Shown here: positions 1 to 64,000 of the stretch, one piece after another
Numbering within the stretch: position 1 is the first letter of the stretch
Layout: each line of letters begins with the position of its first letter
Source: Azospirillum sp.
Lineage (GTDB): Bacteria; Pseudomonadota; Alphaproteobacteria; Azospirillales; Azospirillaceae
Direction of reading: 5' to 3'
DNA length: 64,000 nt
Assembly: GCA_027486405.1 (NCBI GenBank)
Contig: JAIXPD010000011.1
Span: forward strand, 44,561-108,560
Position numbers and translations under genes: made by a program
The notes under the pieces: model-generated
Told to the model about the DNA's origin: nothing
Seen by the model: the letters and a program-made list of their open reading frames with translations, nothing else
Databases searched by the model: none

Positions 1-3000
1 CGTGCGCCCGGTCAGTTCGACATAGGGAACGTCGATCTTCTCCAGCTCCACCTTGATCAGGTCGAGCATCGTGGTGAATTGCGAGAAGATCAGGATGCGG
101 CGGCCTTCCGGGACCATTTCCCGCACCATCTCGGTCAGCGCCTCCAGCTTGGCGCTCTCCTTCACCTTGGCCGCCGTCGGGATCTTCAACAGGCGGGGGT
201 CGCAGCAGACCTGCCGCAGCTTCAGCAGCGCGTCGATCACGGTGATGGTGTTGCGGCCCAGACCGCCGCCCGCCCCGCCGCCAACCGCCAGCGCCGCGCG
301 CACGGTTTCGTTCACCGACAGGCGGATGGTTTCGTACAGGTCGCGCTGGTCGCGATCCAGGTCGATGCGGACCACCATTTCCGTCTTGGGCGGCAGTTCC
401 TTGGCCACCGCCTCTTTCGTCCGGCGCAGCAGGAAGGGACGGATGCGCCGCATCAGCAGATTGGCGCGCGTGTTGTCGCCGCGCTTTTCGATGGGCACGC
501 GGTACCGCTTGCCGAACTCCTTGCGGTCGCCCAGCAGGCCGGGCATCAGGAAGGCGAACTGGCTCCACAATTCGCCCAGATTGTTTTCCACCGGCGTGCC
601 GGACAGGCAGAGACGATGCCGGGCCTGAAGCGCCACCACCGCGCGGGTTGCCTTGCCGTCCGGGTTCTTGATCGCCTGGGCCTCGTCCAGCACCAGCATG
701 TGCCAGCTCAGCCGCTTCAACAGATCGACGTCGCGGGCAACCACGCCGTAGGTCGTCACCACGATGTCGGTGCGGTCCAGTTCGGACAGCTTTTCGTGAC
801 GGTCCAGCCCGTGCAGCACCACCACCCGCAGATCGGGGGTGAAGCGTTCGGCCTCCGCCACCCAGTTGGGGACAAGGCTGGTCGGGACCACCACCAGACA
901 GGGGTCGGTCAGGCGGCCTTCCTGCGCCTCCATGGCGATGTGGGCCAGGGTTTGCGCGGTTTTGCCCAGCCCCATGTCGTCGGCCAGAATCCCGGCGACG
1001 TTGTTGGCGCGCAGGCTTTGCATCCAGGCCAGACCGGCGCGCTGATAATCGCGCAATTCGCCCCGGAATCCCGGCGGCGGGGCGCAATCGCCCAGCGTTT
1101 CGCTGTCGCGCAGCCGTTTCAGATAACCGTCGATCTGCGCGGTTTCGCCCATGCGGCGGCCGATCAGATCATCGATGTCGAGCAGCGTGTCGGCCTCGGC
1201 CATCGGCACCTTCAGCCGGTCGCCCACCGGCCGCCCGGTGCCAAGCATGGCGTCGAGCACGCTCATCAACCGTTCCACCCGCTCGGCGGGCAGGGCCAGC
1301 ACGTTGCCGTCGTCCAACACGATGTGCGCCCGCCCGTCGATGATGCGGGTGGCCGACAGGCCGCCGCGTTCGACCAATTGGGCCAGGATCGGCAGCAGCG
1401 GGCGGCGTTCGCCGTCGATCTCCACCCCGACGTCCAGATCGAACCAGCCGTCACCGGCGTCGCGGACGGCAACCTCGACCTCGGCCCCCGGCTCGATCAC
1501 CTTGGTGCCGAAATCGCTGCCGATCTCCACCAGCCATCCGGCGGCGGTCATGGCTGGAATCTCGGTGCTGAGGAAGGCGCGCCAGCGCTCCTCCACCTCG
1601 CGCCCGGTCAGCCAATGGACGCGCACACCGCGCGCGTTCAGGCTGCCCTTGGGTGGTTCGATCCGAGCCTGGGCGAAGCCGAAGGCGGACAGCCGGTCCA
1701 ACGCCCCCTGTTCGGTCGCCTTGTCGCGGCGGACGAACGTGACGGTGCCGACGGAATCCTCAAAACGGGCGAACTGGCGCTGATCGTCGGGTTCGATCTC
1801 CGCCGCCTCGCCGCCGGGTTCGCCGTAATCGAAGGACAGGCGCAGCACGTCCACCAACCCGTCCGACGGCGTGACCACCCGGCCCAACCGGGCGATGACG
1901 CGCGGGGAGCGGTCGATGATGTCGGCGGCCTCGGCGGCCCCGCTGCGGATGCCGGGAATGGCGTTGTCGCGAAAGGCGGGCGGCAGGCTGGGGGCGGCGC
2001 GCGACGGGGCGAACAGGCGCGACGGGGCCGGGCGTGCGGAAGCCGGGCGGGACGGCGACGGGACCGCCGGGACCGGAACGGCGATCGGCGGCGCGGGCTT
2101 GCTCTTCGGCACCTCGACGACCTGGAGATCGACGGGGAAGACGCTGCCGCTGGCCGAGTCGATGCACCAATAGGATTGCCCCTTCACCAGCGTGCAGCGC
2201 TCCGGCAGGCCGGTGGGGCGCAGCTTGCGCGTGGTCGGGTCGCGGAAGGCGCGCACCGCGCGGGCCGGGCCTTCGTTCAAGGGCGTGCCGTCGCGCCAGC
2301 GCAGACGCCCGGTGCCGAGCAGGCGGCGCAGCAGCCGGTCGATGGCCTCGCCCCGGTTCTTCGCCACCGGGGTGCGGGCCGCACCGCCGCCGCCCAACAG
2401 CCGGGCGATGGCGCGGTCGGCGTCGCCGTTGATGTCGCGCGGTGCCCGGGCCAGCACGTCGCGCGGGGTCGCCGCCTCGCCCTCGCTCTGGCCGTCGGCG
2501 CGGAACTCCGCCGCGATGACGCAAGCGACGTCGCCCTGCCCCGGTTCCAACATCCACCAGACGCTGCGCTCCGCCGCCGGTTTGGCCGCAGACGCGGCGG
2601 GGGCCGGGGCGACCGGGGACAGCGGAACGGACGGGGCGGCGGGCCGGACCAGGGACAGGGCCGGTTGCGCCGCGCGCGGCGGCGGGACCGCTGCGGCGGG
2701 CGGGGGTGGTGGGGCGGGTTGTGCGGCTGGTGTTGCCGCCGCCGGGCCGTTGGCCGGGCGCTGGTCCGGCAGATCGAACAGGGAGGCCCGCCGCCATTCC
2801 GGCCGGCTGTCCAGCGCCATCATCGCCACCGCCGCCATGTGGGCGCAGGCGTTGCGGCCGCAGGTGCAACTGCGGTCCAGCACGACGCCGCGCTTGCCCT
2901 GCACCGGGGTGATGACCACCGCCAGACGGCGGCCCAGATCGTTGACCTCCGCCCGGATGCGGTTGCCACCCGGTTCGCCGAGCGCAACCGCCCCGGTCAT

Positions 3001-46950: not shown

Positions 46951-47277
46951 ATGGGCAGCTTCAGCATCTGGCATTGGATCATCGTTCTGCTGATCGTCCT
47001 TCTCCTGTTCGGCGCGGGCAAGCTGCCCTCGGTGATGGGCGACATCGCCAAGGGCGTCAAAGCCTTCAAGGCGGGCCTGAAGGACGGCGAGGAGGAACAG
47101 CCCCCCGCCCCGGCCCCGGTGGCGCAAGCAGCACCGGTTCAGGCCGCGCCGGTTCAGGCCGCCCCGGTCCAGGCCGCCCCGGTCCAGCCGCAGGTTCAGC
47201 CGCACACGCCGCCGCAGGGCGCGCCCGCCGCCGCCCCGGCCACCACGATCGACCCGGCCAAGCCGCATCAGGGCTGA
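46951..47277 (+). CDS. tatA: Sec-independent protein translocase TatA
   Basis: [48 protein letters not shown]. Confidence 0.95.
47131..47192 (+). repeat. 15-bp coding tandem repeat (AAPVQ)n in TatA tail
   Basis: GCACCGGTTCAGGCC GCGCCGGTTCAGGCC GCCCCGGTCCAGGCC GCCCCGGTCCAG. Confidence 0.85.
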
Positions 47278-51656: not shown

Positions 51657-51907
51657 CCGGCGGTCCCGCCCCGCAAGGACACAAGGCGGATGGCCGCGAG
51701 GATGGCCGGGACGCTGGCCCCGCGCCCCGGCGCGACCGGCTGATCGGTCTGTTCCTGCTCGCCCTGCTGCTGTTCAACCCGCCGCTGCTGCGGCTGTTCG
51801 GCGGCGATGGGGCGCTGTTCGGCCTGCCGTCGCTCTACGCCCACACCCTGCTCGTCTGGGCGGCGGTGATCGCGGCGGCGGCCCTGCTGGCGGAACGGCG
51901 CGGATGA
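51653..51907 (+). CDS. small two-TM membrane protein preceding SSS-type sensor kinase
   Basis: RRDRLIGLFLLALLLFNPPLLRLFGGDGALFGLPSLYAHTLLVWAAVIAAAALLAERRG; 4-nt overlap with upstream gene. Confidence 0.75.
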   Translation: MTGGPAPQGHKADGREDGRDAGPAPRRDRLIGLFLLALLLFNPPLLRLFGGDGALFGLPSLYAHTLLVWAAVIAAAALLAERRG

Positions 51908-51984
51908 CCGGCGCGCGGATGACGGGGGCGCGGATGACGGGGGCGCGGATGATCGGGGGCAGCCCGATGACCAAGACGGGGTGA
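51904..51984 (+). CDS. candidate 26-aa micro-ORF MTGARMTGARMTGARMIGGSPMTKTG
   Basis: ATG overlaps the TGA of the preceding CDS; 15-bp tandem repeat; ends 3 nt before the next start codon. Confidence 0.35.
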   Translation: MTGARMTGARMTGARMIGGSPMTKTG

Positions 51985-57041: not shown

Positions 57042-58784
57042 GTGCGAGCGGTCATGACGGAGGCGAACAACGGCGACGACAACCACAACGGACAACCGAC
57101 GGCGGACGACGCGATCCCGCCGCCCGACACCGTGGACGGCACGCTGGACAGCGCCCGGCGTTACCGCGATCAGGTGCTGTCGGTGATTCCCGGCCTGCTG
57201 ATCCATCGCGGCGACCACATCCTGCATTGCAACGAGGGGCTGGCCCGCCTGCTGGGTTATGAAGCCGCCGACGACATCCTTGTTTTGCCGAGCGTGCTGG
57301 ATCTGGTCCCCGAAGACGCCGAACACGCCGAGCGGGAAGCCTATGCACGCTGCCTGTCCGGCGTGATCCGCCACGACGTGCGCCGCATCAAGCGTTTCCG
57401 CGCCAACGGGGATTTGCAGTGGTTCGACCAGCTGCTGGAGCCGGTCGATTGGGGCGGGCGGCCCGCCGTGATGGAAATGCTGGCGCAGGTCCGCCCACAC
57501 ACCGGCTTCATCGAGCTGCCGCACCAGTGGCAACGGCTCCAGGCCGCCATCGACGCCATGCCGAACGGCGTGCTGATGCTGGACGCCGAAGGGCGGATGG
57601 AGGGGCTGAACAGCGAAATGCTGCGGCTGTGGGATTACCCGCCCGGCCTGTTTCCGCCCGGCACGCCGATGGATGTGATGCTGCATTACAACCACGAGCG
57701 CGGCGATTACGGCGACGGCGACCCATCGGAAAAGATCGCGATGATGCGGTCGCAACTGCTGCGCAAGGGCGCGCACAACGCCGAACGGCGGGTCCCCAGC
57801 GGGCGCGTGCTGGACATCCGCACCGCGCCGCGCGCCGACGGCGGCATGGTCGTCACCCACATGGACATCACCGACCGCAAGCGGATCGAGGATGAACTGC
57901 GCGAGGCCAAGGAGCGCGCCGAAACCCTGTTGCGGGAATTGCAGGAGACCCAGCAGCAATTGATCGTGCAGGAAAAGATGGCCTCGCTGGGTCAATTGAC
58001 CGCCGGCATCGCGCACGAGCTGAAAAACCCCCTGAACTTCGTCAACAATTTCGCCGACCTGTCCGGCGAGCTTCTGGACGAGCTGCTGGAGTTGCTGGGG
58101 CCGCTGGACGACCGCTTGAACGCCAACGACCGCGCCGACGCCGAAGACCTGATCGACAGCCTGAAAGGCAATCTGCTGAAGATCGCCAACCACGGCCGCC
58201 GGGCCGACAGCATCGTCAAAAGCATGCTGGCCCATTCGCGCGGCGGCGGCGGGGAATGGCAGAGCGCCGACGTCAACGCCCTGGTGGACGAGGCCCTGAC
58301 CCTGGCCTATCACGCGGTGCGCGCCCAGGACCGCGATTTCAACACCGCGTTCGTTCGCCACTACGACCCGGCGGTGGGTGAGGTGAAGATCGTTCCGCAG
58401 GACATTTCCCGCGTCCTGGTCAACCTGTTCACCAACTCCTTTTACGCCCTGCGCAAGCGCCAGACCCTGGACCGCGAGGGTGATTACAGCCCAACCTTGA
58501 CGATTGTTACCTGCGATTGCAAAGACAAGATTGAAATTCGGGTGCACGACAATGGTATTGGAATGTCGCAGTCGGTGATTGAAAAACTGTTCACGCCGTT
58601 CTTTACAACAAAACCGACAGGCGAAGGCACTGGGTTAGGACTTTCGCTCAGCTATGACATCGTGGTACATCAGCATAAGGGTCGTTTTGATGTATCCAGC
58701 GTTGAAAACGATCATGCGGAATTCACGATCACGCTGCCACGCGCCGCCACGGCGATGGCGCTAGGGGAGCGCCGAAAGACATGA
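57042..58784 (+). CDS. PAS histidine kinase (GTG start at 57042 or ATG at 57054)
   Basis: [14 protein letters not shown]...; [62 protein letters not shown]. Confidence 0.92.
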
Positions 58785-59176
58785 CACTCGGAATTCTTGT
58801 CGTCGATGACGAACCCGACGTCGCGGATCTGTTCAAGCAACGTTTCCGTGCAGAATTGCGCACTGGTCAGGTCGCCTTCCATTTCGCCACCTCCGCCGAA
58901 CAGGCGCTGGAATCCTTGGAAACCGGCCTGAATCCGGAAACCTTTCTGGTGCTCAGCGACATCAACATGCCGGGCATGAGCGGGCTTGACCTGCTGGAAC
59001 GGCTGCGCGCCAGGACGCCGGATGTGCCGGTCATCATGGTCACGGCCTATGGCGACACCGAAAACCGCCGCCGGGCCTTGGACATTGGCGCGACGGATTT
59101 GGTGACGAAGCCGGTGGATTTCGCCGAGTTGAAAAAGATCGTCAACACGCTGATCGCGCAGAAACAGGCCGCCTGA
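58781..59176 (+). CDS. response regulator
   Basis: [47 protein letters not shown]...[23 protein letters not shown] overlap with kinase. Confidence 0.93.
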   Translation: MTLGILVVDDEPDVADLFKQRFRAELRTGQVAFHFATSAEQALESLETGLNPETFLVLSDINMPGMSGLDLLERLRARTPDVPVIMVTAYGDTENRRRALDIGATDLVTKPVDFAELKKIVNTLIAQKQAA

Positions 59177-59203: not shown

Positions 59204-60367
59204 TCACACGCCGCACACCGCCGCCATATCCTCCAGCGCCACCACCGCCCCCGGCGCGCAGGATGGGCAATCGGGATCGACCGGCACGGCGATGTCGGAA
59301 AACTCCCCGCGCAAACCATCATACATCAGCAGCCGCCCGGCCAACGGTTCGCCCAGGCCCAACAGCAGCTTGATGGTTTCCGCCGCCATGATGGTCCCGA
59401 TCACCCCGGGCAGCACCCCCAACACCCCGGCCTCGGCGCAGGACGGCGCGTATTCCGCCGGGGGCGGTTCGGGGAACAGGCAGCGGTAGCAGGGCCGCAC
59501 ACCCGGTGCCGCCCCGCCAAACACCGACACCTGCCCCTCGAATCGGAAAATCGCGCCGTAGACGTTCGGCACGCCCAGCCGCAGACAGGCGTCGTTGACC
59601 AGATAGCGCGTCGGCAGATTGTCCGAGCCATCGACCACCACGTCGTGACCACCCAACAGCTCCAGCACGTTGGTCGAGTCGAGCCGGGTGTCGTGCGCCA
59701 CCACCGCGATCGTCGGGTTGAGGTCGAGCAAAGCCGCCCGCCCGCTGTCGACCTTGCGCTGCCCCAGGCGGCTTTCCGCGTGCAGGATTTGGCGTTGCAG
59801 GTTGCTGCGCTCGACCTTGTCGTCGTCGATCAGAGTCAAATGACCGACTCCGGCGGCGGCCAGATAGAGCGCGATGGGCGACCCCAGCCCCCCGGCCCCG
59901 ATCAGGGCGACGCGGCTGCGCAACAACCGGTGCTGCCCGGCCTCCCCCACCTCCGGCATGGTCAGGTGACGGCGGTAGCGCTCGCGCTGGGCGGCGTCGA
60001 GTTGCGGCGGGGTTTCCACCGGCAGACCCGCCGCCTTCCAGGCGGAAAAGCCACCCGCCAGCGACCGCACGTCGGCGTAGCCCAGCCGCGCCAGATCCTC
60101 CGCCGCGAACAGGGAACGCGCGCCACCGGCGCACATCAGCACCAGCGGGCGGGCCGGGTCGGGGACCTTTTCCTCGACCCGCAATTCCAGGAAGCCGCGC
60201 GGCAGGCGCAGCGCGCCGACCGGGCTGCCGGTGGCGGTTTCCTCATCCTCGCGGACGTCGATCAACAGCGCGCCGTCGCGTTGCAGGCGCAACGCCTCCT
60301 CCGCCCCCACTTCGGGGATGCGGGCGCGCAATTCGGCCAGACGGCGATCCTTCAGGCTCATCCCCAA
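59204..60367 (-). CDS. E1-like ThiF/MoeB adenylyltransferase with N-terminal rhodanese domain
   Basis: Rhodanese LLIDVREDEE...LVLMCAGGARSLFAAEDLARLGYADVRSLAGGFSAW; ThiF RYRRHLTMPEVGEAGQHRLLRSRVALIGAGGLGSPIALYLAAAGVGHLTLIDDDKVERSNLQRQILH; CYRC...CPSC Zn ligands. Confidence 0.93.
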   Translation of the reverse strand: MGMSLKDRRLAELRARIPEVGAEEALRLQRDGALLIDVREDEETATGSPVGALRLPRGFLELRVEEKVPDPARPLVLMCAGGARSLFAAEDLARLGYADVRSLAGGFSAWKAAGLPVETPPQLDAAQRERYRRHLTMPEVGEAGQHRLLRSRVALIGAGGLGSPIALYLAAAGVGHLTLIDDDKVERSNLQRQILHAESRLGQRKVDSGRAALLDLNPTIAVVAHDTRLDSTNVLELLGGHDVVVDGSDNLPTRYLVNDACLRLGVPNVYGAIFRFEGQVSVFGGAAPGVRPCYRCLFPEPPPAEYAPSCAEAGVLGVLPGVIGTIMAAETIKLLLGLGEPLAGRLLMYDGLRGEFSDIAVPVDPDCPSCAPGAVVALEDMAAVCGV

Positions 60368-60375
60368 CTCCTCCG

Positions 60376-60657
60376 TCAGCCGCCCGCCAGGGCGACCATC
60401 ACCGTCAGGGTGGCCCCGGCGGACAGGCCGGTGTCCAGGCCACCCAACCGACGCACATCCTCCCGCCCGAGATAGACGTTGACGAAGCGGCGCAGGTCGC
60501 CTTCGGCGGTGAACAGCCGATCCTGAAAGGCCGCCTGCCCGGCGGTCAGCGCGGTCAGCGCCTCGCGCACCGTCGCCCCCGGAACCGCCACCTGATCCCG
60601 CCCGCCGACAAAGCCGCGCAGGGGGGTGGGAATGCGAATCGTCACTTCGGTGGTCAT
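60376..60657 (-). CDS. ThiS/MoaD-like ubiquitin-fold sulfur carrier
   Basis: MTTEVTIRIPTPLRGFVGGRDQVAVPGATVREALTALTAG...; C-terminal GG. Confidence 0.9.
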   Translation of the reverse strand: MTTEVTIRIPTPLRGFVGGRDQVAVPGATVREALTALTAGQAAFQDRLFTAEGDLRRFVNVYLGREDVRRLGGLDTGLSAGATLTVMVALAGG

Positions 60658-62036
60658 GGGGTTTTCTCCTCGCTGCGCAGCGCCGCCCCCGCCTCCTCGG
60701 CCAGTTGGCGGAACAGATCCCGGACCTGCTTAGCCCGCATCAGGTCGATGCGCAAATCCAACGCGTCCTTGAAGCCCGACTCCAGCGCCCACGCCTCCAG
60801 CGGCCCGTCGATCCGCCCCTGGCTGTTGGCCAGATGGTCGAGGATCAGGTCGTCCATCGTCAGGTTGGGTTGCTGGCTGGCGTCGGCGAAATGCAGCTCC
60901 ATGGTCCGCTGCGCCAGCGCGGCCGACGCGGCGGTTTTCTCATACAGGCCGCGCAACCGCAGCTCGTTCAACACCGGCTTGGTGGTGCGGGTCAGGTAAC
61001 GCCGCCCGATCAACCACAGCCGCATCGCCCGTTCCACCGCCAGTTCGGTGATGAAATCGGAAAATTCCTGTTCGGTCAGATCGTTGCGGCGCGCCCACGC
61101 CGCCAGCGCCGCCGGACTGTCCAACCCGCGCGCCGCGCAGAAACGCCGCAGCTCGTCGGCGACCATCGCCGCATCGGCGGTCACACCGACCGACGCGGCG
61201 TACAGCACGATCAAATGCCGCCCCAACGCCGCCGCGTTGATCTCGGCGAAATCGGGCCTATGCAGTGCGGCGTGGCTGGCGATGTCCGACAGGGGAACCG
61301 TGTTGCCATCGTGCGACACGCGGCGGTCGCGTTCGTACAGCGCCTCGAAATAATGGGAGACGTTGAACGGGAACGGGGCCGGGCGCGGGGCCGCCGTCAG
61401 GCCGCGCAGATGGGTCAGCAGCGCTTCGGCGTCCAACCGCTTCTGGTCCACCGCCCCGCTGGCCAGAAAGGCGTCCAGCCGCGCCGTCTCCGCCTCGGTC
61501 AGACCCGCGTCGGCCCAAATCCGGTCGCGCGTGCGTTCCGGAAAGAAGCGGGCCTTGGCCGCCGCGATGATGCGGTCGTGCAGGGCGCGGTCGATCACCC
61601 CCGCCGCCACCGCCGCCGCCAGACTGGCGCGCAGATTGACCAGCGGTTCGGACAGCGGGAAATAGCCATCCTCCGCCCCGGCGTGGGCGAGCGCGACCTC
61701 GTCATCCCCGGACAGGCGTCCGGCGATGTAATCGCCCGCCACCACCCCCACGGGAATCATGCCGAAGGGCTGGCATTCCGCCGCCCGCAGCGCCCCCATG
61801 CTCGACGCGCCATAGACGGCGACGCCGTTGTGCAGGGCGAACAGAATTTCCTTGTGCCAGACCGACAGCGATTGCCCGAACACGCCGTCGATCAGGGCGA
61901 TGGCGTCGGGCTGGTGGATCGTCATCGCGCTCAGCAGATCCGCCTGCGCGGCGGGCGGCAGATACACGGCGTCGGGCAGGAGCGCGCGGGCGTCCTCCAC
62001 CGGCATGGTCGGGCCGAGAAACACACAGATTTTCAT
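60654..62036 (-). CDS. TfuA-like protein
   Basis: MKICVFLGPTMPVEDARALLPDAVYLPPAAQADLLSAMTIHQPDAIALIDGVFGQSLSVWHKEILFALHNGVAVYGASSMGALRAAE. Confidence 0.92.
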   Translation of the reverse strand: MKICVFLGPTMPVEDARALLPDAVYLPPAAQADLLSAMTIHQPDAIALIDGVFGQSLSVWHKEILFALHNGVAVYGASSMGALRAAECQPFGMIPVGVVAGDYIAGRLSGDDEVALAHAGAEDGYFPLSEPLVNLRASLAAAVAAGVIDRALHDRIIAAAKARFFPERTRDRIWADAGLTEAETARLDAFLASGAVDQKRLDAEALLTHLRGLTAAPRPAPFPFNVSHYFEALYERDRRVSHDGNTVPLSDIASHAALHRPDFAEINAAALGRHLIVLYAASVGVTADAAMVADELRRFCAARGLDSPAALAAWARRNDLTEQEFSDFITELAVERAMRLWLIGRRYLTRTTKPVLNELRLRGLYEKTAASAALAQRTMELHFADASQQPNLTMDDLILDHLANSQGRIDGPLEAWALESGFKDALDLRIDLMRAKQVRDLFRQLAEEAGAALRSEEKTP

Positions 62037-63334
62037 GGGACCGCTCCCACCGGCCGACCGGCGTAAGCGGCGGCGATCGCGTTGGCGAAGGCCACCGGAC
62101 GCGCGCCCGGTGTGTAGAAATCAAAGCCGTAGCCTTCCAGCCCCGGAACCACCACGCGGATGACCGGAATGCCGATTTCCGGCTGGGTCAGGTCGAATAC
62201 CAACACCTGCTCCACCCCGCAATGCTGCAGCGCCCCCAGCAACAGGGCGATGTCGCCCTCGAAGGTCGGGGTCGAGCGGTTGGGATGGCGGCGCGCGTCC
62301 ACCGTGGCCGGTTGCGATTCGATGCGCTGCACCTCGGCCGGGCCATCGCCGTTCTGGTTGCGCTGGAGGTCGCGGCGGAAAAAATCATCGCGCGACCCGG
62401 CGATCAGCACCAAACGCGATTGCACCGCCTCGGTCAGCGCGCGCGACATCGCCACCGCCGGTTCCAGATGGGTCCCATAGCCCCGGTGCATCCCGCTCTT
62501 GCGGACGTCGCGGTCGTAGACGATGGCGGAGTAGGTCGGCACGCCCATGTCGGTGGTGACGTCGAACAGCAGCGGGCAGATCCCCGCCTCGTCAAAGCGG
62601 CGCAGCAGATCCTGCACCACCGGGCTGTCCACCGTGCGCAGATCCACGCGCGGCAACGGCACGCCCATGCGTTCGGACACAAAGCGCCAGCAGGCCACCG
62701 AATCGCGTTCGATCACCTCGTACAGCCCGGCGGCGACCGCCTCCAAAATGTGGTTGCCGCTGGCCAGACCGTTGGTTCCCATCGCGCACAGGCTGCGCAC
62801 CCCGGCGTTGGGAACTGGAAAGCCGTACAGCGCGACCGAGGCCCAGGGGGCGGCGATCGGACGGCTGGACATCAGATCCCAGCCCCAGGTCCAGAATTCC
62901 GGGCGGTCGGCGCGGAAGGACCCGTTCTTGGTCCCCGGCAGCCGTTCCACCGGAATGCGGGCGTCGGGCGGCAAATCGTTCCAACAGGCTTCGATGTGGG
63001 GCAGACGCAGGGTTTCGGCGTGGTGGAACTCGATGGCCTCCATCGCCGCCGACACGGTGGCCGCAACCAGGCTGAAGCCCTTGCCAGCGCTGCCCGACAG
63101 CGTCGGGCTGTTGGGCCGATGGCCGAGCACCGTGTGGATGCCCAAACGGTCCAACCCGGTGACGTCGGCCAACCGGGTGATGCCGCAACGGGCCAGATGG
63201 GGCGAAATGCGCGCCAGGGTTTCTTCCGGCGAGGCGGTTCGGTGCGTGCCCTGGAAGAAGCGCTTGGTCGCGCGGTGCGTGGTGCCGCCAAGCCGAATTC
63301 CCGGCTCAACGTGCGACGACGGCTGGTCGGTCAT
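62033..63334 (-). CDS. YcaO-domain protein
   Basis: GITRLADVTGLDRLGIHTVLGHRPNSPTLSGSAGKGFSLVAATVSAAMEAIEFHHAE; GTNGLASGNHILEAVAAGLYEVIERDSVACW; ALTEAVQSRLVLIAGSRDDFF; 4-nt overlap with tfuA. Confidence 0.94.
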   Translation of the reverse strand: MTDQPSSHVEPGIRLGGTTHRATKRFFQGTHRTASPEETLARISPHLARCGITRLADVTGLDRLGIHTVLGHRPNSPTLSGSAGKGFSLVAATVSAAMEAIEFHHAETLRLPHIEACWNDLPPDARIPVERLPGTKNGSFRADRPEFWTWGWDLMSSRPIAAPWASVALYGFPVPNAGVRSLCAMGTNGLASGNHILEAVAAGLYEVIERDSVACWRFVSERMGVPLPRVDLRTVDSPVVQDLLRRFDEAGICPLLFDVTTDMGVPTYSAIVYDRDVRKSGMHRGYGTHLEPAVAMSRALTEAVQSRLVLIAGSRDDFFRRDLQRNQNGDGPAEVQRIESQPATVDARRHPNRSTPTFEGDIALLLGALQHCGVEQVLVFDLTQPEIGIPVIRVVVPGLEGYGFDFYTPGARPVAFANAIAAAYAGRPVGAVP

Positions 63335-63698: not shown

Positions 63699-64000
63699 TC
63701 AGCCCGCCTCGCCGGTCGGTGGCACGTCCGCCGCCGGGGCGGACGGGGCAGCCGGTTGGCCCGCCCAGATCGCACCAGCCGCAGGCGAAGCCGCCGCCGG
63801 AGCACCCGACCAGATCGCGCCAGCCGCAGGCGAGGCCGCCGCCGGAGCACCCGACCAGATCGCACCAGCCGCAGGCGAAGCCGCCGCAGGAGCGCCAGAC
63901 CAGATCGCGCCAGCCGCAGGCGAAGCCGCCGCCGGAGCACCCGACCAGATCGCGCCAGCCGCAGGCGAGGCCGCCGCAGGAGCGCCAGACCAGATCGCGC
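63699..64000 (-). CDS. C-terminal part of repetitive ORF with 15-aa repeats AGAIWSGAPAAASPA (5' end outside window)
   Basis: Minus frame ending at TGA 63701-63699: ...[AGAIWSGAPAAASPA]n-AGAIWAGQPAAPSAPAADVPPTGEAG*; inter-repeat differences synonymous. Confidence 0.55.
   Translation of the reverse strand, partial: AIWSGAPAAASPAAGAIWSGAPAAASPAAGAIWSGAPAAASPAAGAIWSGAPAAASPAAGAIWSGAPAAASPAAGAIWAGQPAAPSAPAADVPPTGEAG
63781..64000. repeat. 45-bp tandem repeat, about 4.9 units visible, runs off window
   Basis: Unit GCAGGCGAAGCCGCCGCCGGAGCACCCGACCAGATCGCGCCAGCC. Confidence 0.97.

Follow-up and report, generated by a model that had tools for sequence, protein, structure and literature searches.

A 45-bp tandem array runs off the end of a contig of Azospirillum sp., and the copies that can be compared there differ only at positions that are multiples of three, raising the question of whether the array is translated, from which strand, and what its product might be. 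The window (the whole stretch of DNA analysed, 64,000 nucleotides, C45:44561-108560) comes from a 5.49 Mb assembly in 96 contigs, and tandem repeat finding (TRF) places the array at 63760–64000, with 5.4 copies and 91% matches. In the minus-strand frame that closes with a TGA at 63699–63701, five complete units carry the identical 15 residues AGAIWSGAPAAASPA. Five columns vary among these units, each a third codon position, the alternatives being TCG/TCT, GGC/GGT, CCG/CCT, GCC/GCT and GGC/GGT; these are columns 12, 15, 21, 30 and 45, the same five (39, 27, 24, 18 and 9 on the other strand, up to register) that a previous sequence-only reading of the window had picked out as all multiples of three. 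That reading also held that every unit encodes one peptide, which is true of the perfect units but not of the last one, which is degenerate (AIWAGQPAAPSAPAA...) and leads through the tail ADVPPTGEAG to the stop. The chance of five columns falling in one codon phase is about 3 x (1/3)^5 = 0.012 for the window alone, and this evidence is modest because the variable columns travel as haplotypes. Short 15/30-bp tandem repeats also occur inside long open frames at window positions 47127–47191 and 51897–51960.

The beginning of the gene lies on another contig. C45 terminates exactly at window position 64000, within the array, and contig C19 of the same genome opens within that array (94% identity). 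On the C19 minus strand, an ATG at C19:565 stands behind AAGAGGGCAGGA, a purine-rich, ribosome-site-like stretch, and is followed by MANEQALNLIKRLATDSVFRDQLNAQDANGKRALLEQNGFSGVGADDVRAAAADAFRSL... and then by five more perfect units, whose only differences fall at those same third positions. The start codon, ribosome-binding site and leader that the sequence-only reading had proposed to look for beyond position 64000 thus have their counterparts on C19, the leader being Nif11-like and in frame with the array. The gene holds at least 10 perfect copies of AGAIWSGAPAAASPA, five on C45 and five on C19. The two contig ends share only 15 bases, and their adjacency is taken from the gene order in contiguous loci of relatives, in most of which glyQ is followed by a small ORF, one or two precursor genes, YcaO, TfuA, ThiS, in some cases ThiF, and a convergent response regulator and histidine kinase; wherever the locus is contiguous, the precursor is directly upstream of YcaO. 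The components of the locus in this genome are as follows.

63760–64000, minus strand: 45-bp tandem array encoding AGAIWSGAPAAASPA, continuing on contig C19
63699–64000, minus strand: 3′ part of the precursor gene, comprising five perfect units of 15 residues, a degenerate one, the tail and the stop (5′ part on C19)
C19 positions 1–565, minus strand: 5′ part of the precursor gene, with the leader
62033–63334, minus strand: YcaO enzyme (PF02624, E 2.2e-72)
60654–62036, minus strand: TfuA protein (PF07812, E 4.5e-41), with an N-terminal TfuA domain (about 1–211) and a C-terminal extension
60376–60657, minus strand: ThiS/MoaD-like sulfur carrier with a Gly-Gly end
59204–60367, minus strand: rhodanese and MoeB/ThiF adenylyltransferase, the presumed sulfur loader of the carrier
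57042–58784, plus strand: histidine kinase convergent with the operon, a candidate regulator
58781–59176, plus strand: response regulator receiver protein, the partner of the histidine kinase

In nine of the 24 genomes that carry this cluster, the assembly is broken or gapped at the array: contigs end there in G000 (this genome), G013, G016, G020, G022, G026 and G030, while G033 and G035 have N gaps. Leader and enzymes are thereby separated, and such clusters can be hidden by assembly at the repeat array. The small ORF between glyQ and the precursor (L006 1017–1469) has a signal-peptide-like start, and its position is kept in most cluster-bearing genomes, with 54–78% identity (97% in A. griseum).

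The leader is about 80 residues long and Nif11-like by sequence, short of a certified family member, since its scores against both relevant models are below the curated cut-offs (TIGR03798, residues 1–61, E 8.8e-6, 25.9 of 32.3 bits; PF07862, E 4e-4, 21.1 of 23.8 bits). Among 25 leaders of the family, 13 are matched by TIGR03798 at E 0.01 or better and 11 by PF07862. An AlphaFold2 model of the leader is helical (pLDDT 77), and a fold search with it returned no solved-structure match. On reading the sequences of this precursor and its homologues, no Gly-Gly motif was seen at the junction of leader and core. Main leaders in relatives are 54–94% identical to this one (tblastn segments counted).

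Downstream of the precursor and on the same strand lie the YcaO, TfuA, ThiS-like and rhodanese–MoeB/ThiF genes, of which ycaO and tfuA are adjacent and overlap. The nearest curated family of YcaO is that of McrA-glycine thioamidation (TIGR03266), at 219.9 of 365 bits and thus below the cut-off, compared with 113 bits for SagD; TfuA likewise remains below the equivalog cut-off of the McrA-glycine thioamidation family NF033432 (185.9 of 235.2 bits). YcaO resembles MJ1094 (6pe3) and TfuA resembles 6xp8. A C-terminal PxPxP is the defining motif of the YcaO azoline cyclodehydratases, and it is not present in this YcaO, whose C-terminus reads ...YTPGARPVAFANAIAAAYAGRPVGAVP. The TfuA extension of about 250 residues (about 212–460) is strongly conserved and matched no Pfam family and no PDB sequence in a profile search; one guess is that it is a candidate for leader recognition. 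The TfuA model was of low confidence (pLDDT 65.8). A ThiS-like carrier with its activating enzyme is frequent, though not universal, in TfuA–YcaO clusters. According to published work, TfuA hydrolyses ThiS-COSH and the sulfide is used by YcaO (PMC13185837), and organisms without high sulfide tend toward a ThiS-like carrier together with TfuA (PMC13063428). Together, these four genes correspond to the set of components already described for thioamidation of peptide backbones. Within the conserved block, none of the genes was identified as coding for a protease, an exporter or an immunity protein.

Searching genome contigs with YcaO turned up 15 Azospirillum loci with 72–92% identity. Of 45 Azospirillum genomes, 24 have the leader, and exactly these 24 also have the cluster-type TfuA, YcaO, ThiS and the histidine kinase, a co-occurrence that would have a probability of 2.6e-13 were the genomes independent; since all 24 may belong to a single clade, this figure is not taken as a p-value, and their shared gene content is not independent evidence of function. 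The leader was found in no other genus of the order, in no plasmid record and, among 387 sampled genomes of Alphaproteobacteria, nowhere outside Azospirillum. A second leader match is present in 14 of the 24 genomes and, in the loci that were read, belongs to a second precursor that is usually shorter and lies just upstream of the main one. Open-licence papers yielded no report of TfuA in Azospirillum.

While the leader is conserved, the cores differ wholly between species groups. The repeat is AGAIWSGAPAASTPA in A. griseum, PAAAMPATANPAAAL in A. agricola, AGMAGFAAAGAPSPAASA in the oryzae group and SMLAGTAAPAASASM in A. picis, and AFSAVAAPASAFSAAAQSASAVPAP is common to several Azospirillum. 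The main cores are rich in Ala, Ser and Pro, with 30–53% Ala; nearly all are uncharged, and there is almost no Cys. Serine is absent from one main core (L059) and cysteine from nearly all cores, and no residue but alanine is abundant in the cores of all species, so that core composition singles out no residue as the one that would be modified. Neighbouring copies within each array were compared for 29 arrays from across the genus, whose units are in many cases quite unlike one another, giving a pooled pS of 0.170, a pN of 0.018 and a pN/pS of 0.11, with pS exceeding pN in all 29 arrays; these are descriptive counts, because the copies of one array are kin to each other and some units recur in more than one species. 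The selection on the peptide that had been suggested from the window is supported by this synonymous excess. One array was left out of the pool, that of the main precursor of A. cavernae (L061, minus strand), which is frameshifted relative to its leader and whose variation follows the third positions of that shifted frame, as would fit an array long translated in the other frame that acquired an indel recently or through an assembly artefact. Copies in one species keep a common amino-acid sequence under purifying selection, whereas between species the whole repeat unit is replaced. The pattern is observed; from it we infer concerted evolution of the array, probably by unequal exchange.

These data bear on whether the array is coding and on which strand. 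Slippage in a non-coding array was considered and rejected, given that all 29 arrays show a codon-phase bias and that a leader is present. The facing plus frame (AGEAAAGAPDQIAPA) shares its third positions with the minus frame, hence the variation inside the array is synonymous there too, and the warning in the sequence-only reading that third positions cannot by themselves choose the strand was right for the window; it is the related loci that settle the matter. In many homologues the facing frame contains stops, up to 26 in one core, in this genome it meets a stop opposite the leader, and it has no leader of its own, which leaves the minus strand as the coding strand, and the chance that the plus frame is a real gene is vanishingly small. 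The minus frame, which had been preferred on the evidence of the window, has a start, a leader, an array in frame and a stop at 63699. Interruption of this frame in homologues was to have spoken against it, and the sense frame is open in their cores, with the frameshifted A. cavernae main precursor as the exception.

If the gene is translated, its product might still be something other than the substrate of the enzymes beside it. A leader-tagged, low-complexity protein with a structural or surface role, made while YcaO and TfuA modify something else, would suit cores that are rich in Ala, Ser and Pro and have alanine alone in abundance throughout, as well as a conserved block in which neither protease nor exporter was identified. 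We consider this improbable, given that the precursor adjoins YcaO in every contiguous locus and occurs in exactly the genomes with the cluster-type enzymes, and that a Nif11-like leader is a feature of RiPP precursors (PMC2887384, PMC8120280). Less probable again, and very much so, is that YcaO and its ThiF-like partner make oxazolines from Ser/Thr and not thioamides. Azoline-forming YcaO enzymes are often paired with ThiF/MoeB-like proteins (PMC5589413), and the repeat unit here does contain serine; however, TfuA, the ThiS carrier and the rhodanese–MoeB protein together indicate sulfide delivery, and YcaO scores best against the thioamidation family. Azoline chemistry was judged unlikely, with some cores that have no Ser or no Cys and an enzyme that has no PxPxP.

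The best explanation, which we hold to be probable, is that the array encodes the modular core of a multicore RiPP precursor, probably thioamidated, with hypervariable and concertedly evolving cores. What is observed is the gene with its leader, the conserved repeats and the operon; thioamidation, its position, cleavage, export and the role of the product we infer. The leader would recruit the YcaO–TfuA pair; the ThiS-like carrier would receive sulfur from the rhodanese–MoeB/ThiF protein and release it through the action of TfuA, and YcaO, using ATP, would place it as a thioamide in the backbone of each repeat, as characterised homologues suggest; proteolysis, by analogy with the thiovarsolins, would free a short peptide, hydrophobic and uncharged, in many copies. 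Counted against this explanation are the scores of leader, YcaO and TfuA, all below the relevant curated cut-offs, the leader end without a visible Gly-Gly, and the conserved block without a protease, exporter or immunity gene.

Each half of this arrangement is already known separately, TfuA–YcaO with Nif11-like leaders (PMC8120280) and TfuA–YcaO with repeating cores (PMC6511847); what is new here is the combination of the two, together with arrays that are both long and perfect and a unit that is replaced wholesale from one species to another. Thiovarsolins arise from a repeating TfuA–YcaO precursor (PMC6511847), and their cluster in Streptomyces varsoviensis (VarA/VarY/VarT) shares with the present one a YcaO–TfuA pair, a leader followed by repeating cores and the lack of a dedicated protease. 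VarA, however, has five imperfect repeats around APR, compared with at least 10 perfect 15-residue repeats here, and its cluster adds heme oxygenase-like, ATP-grasp ligase and amidinotransferase tailoring genes (PMC6511847), whereas the Azospirillum locus has a Nif11-like leader, ThiS and ThiF in the operon, and a host among the Alphaproteobacteria. The precursors described by Malit et al. in 2021 (PMC8120280), from Desulforegula, Anabaena, Rhizobium, Simkania and Ruegeria, also combine a Nif11-like leader with an adjoining TfuA–YcaO, but carry a conserved GG cleavage motif, which was not seen here; that paper makes no mention of 'repeat', whereas the present cores are Ala-rich tandem repeats of a family found in Azospirillum only. 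The methanogen YcaO–TfuA of McrA glycine thioamidation, sometimes with sulfur-carrier genes nearby, represents the nearest curated families, yet its substrate is a large enzyme (PMC5589413) and not a leader-tagged repeat peptide, and the scores here stay below the McrA-specific cut-offs. The Nif11/NHLP precursors of Haft et al. (2010, PMC2887384) likewise pair a conserved leader with a hypervariable core, but their cores are rich in Cys, Gly and Ser and their leaders usually end in Gly-Gly, in contrast to the arrays of near-identical, almost Cys-free units found here.

If the core is thioamidated, this would be a naturally permissive system, in which one leader and enzyme set serves cores with hardly any sequence in common from one species group to the next, and it could be used to test the substrate needs of thioamide-forming YcaO enzymes and what drives the whole-unit replacement of tandem cores. 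A more speculative extension, which we hold to be possible though rather unlikely, is a genus-restricted class of thioamidated multicore peptides whose leader and enzyme set accepts almost any Ala/Ser/Pro-rich core; each species would replace its entire unit by concerted evolution and so make products of its own, which might have a part in recognition or competition among root-associated bacteria. A separate, second YcaO–TfuA pair is also encoded in this genome (L058 7838–9849; C66, about 67837–69848), flanked by small ORFs that, read by eye, resemble ribbon-helix-helix proteins, and TfuA of this second kind is present in 44 of the 45 Azospirillum genomes.
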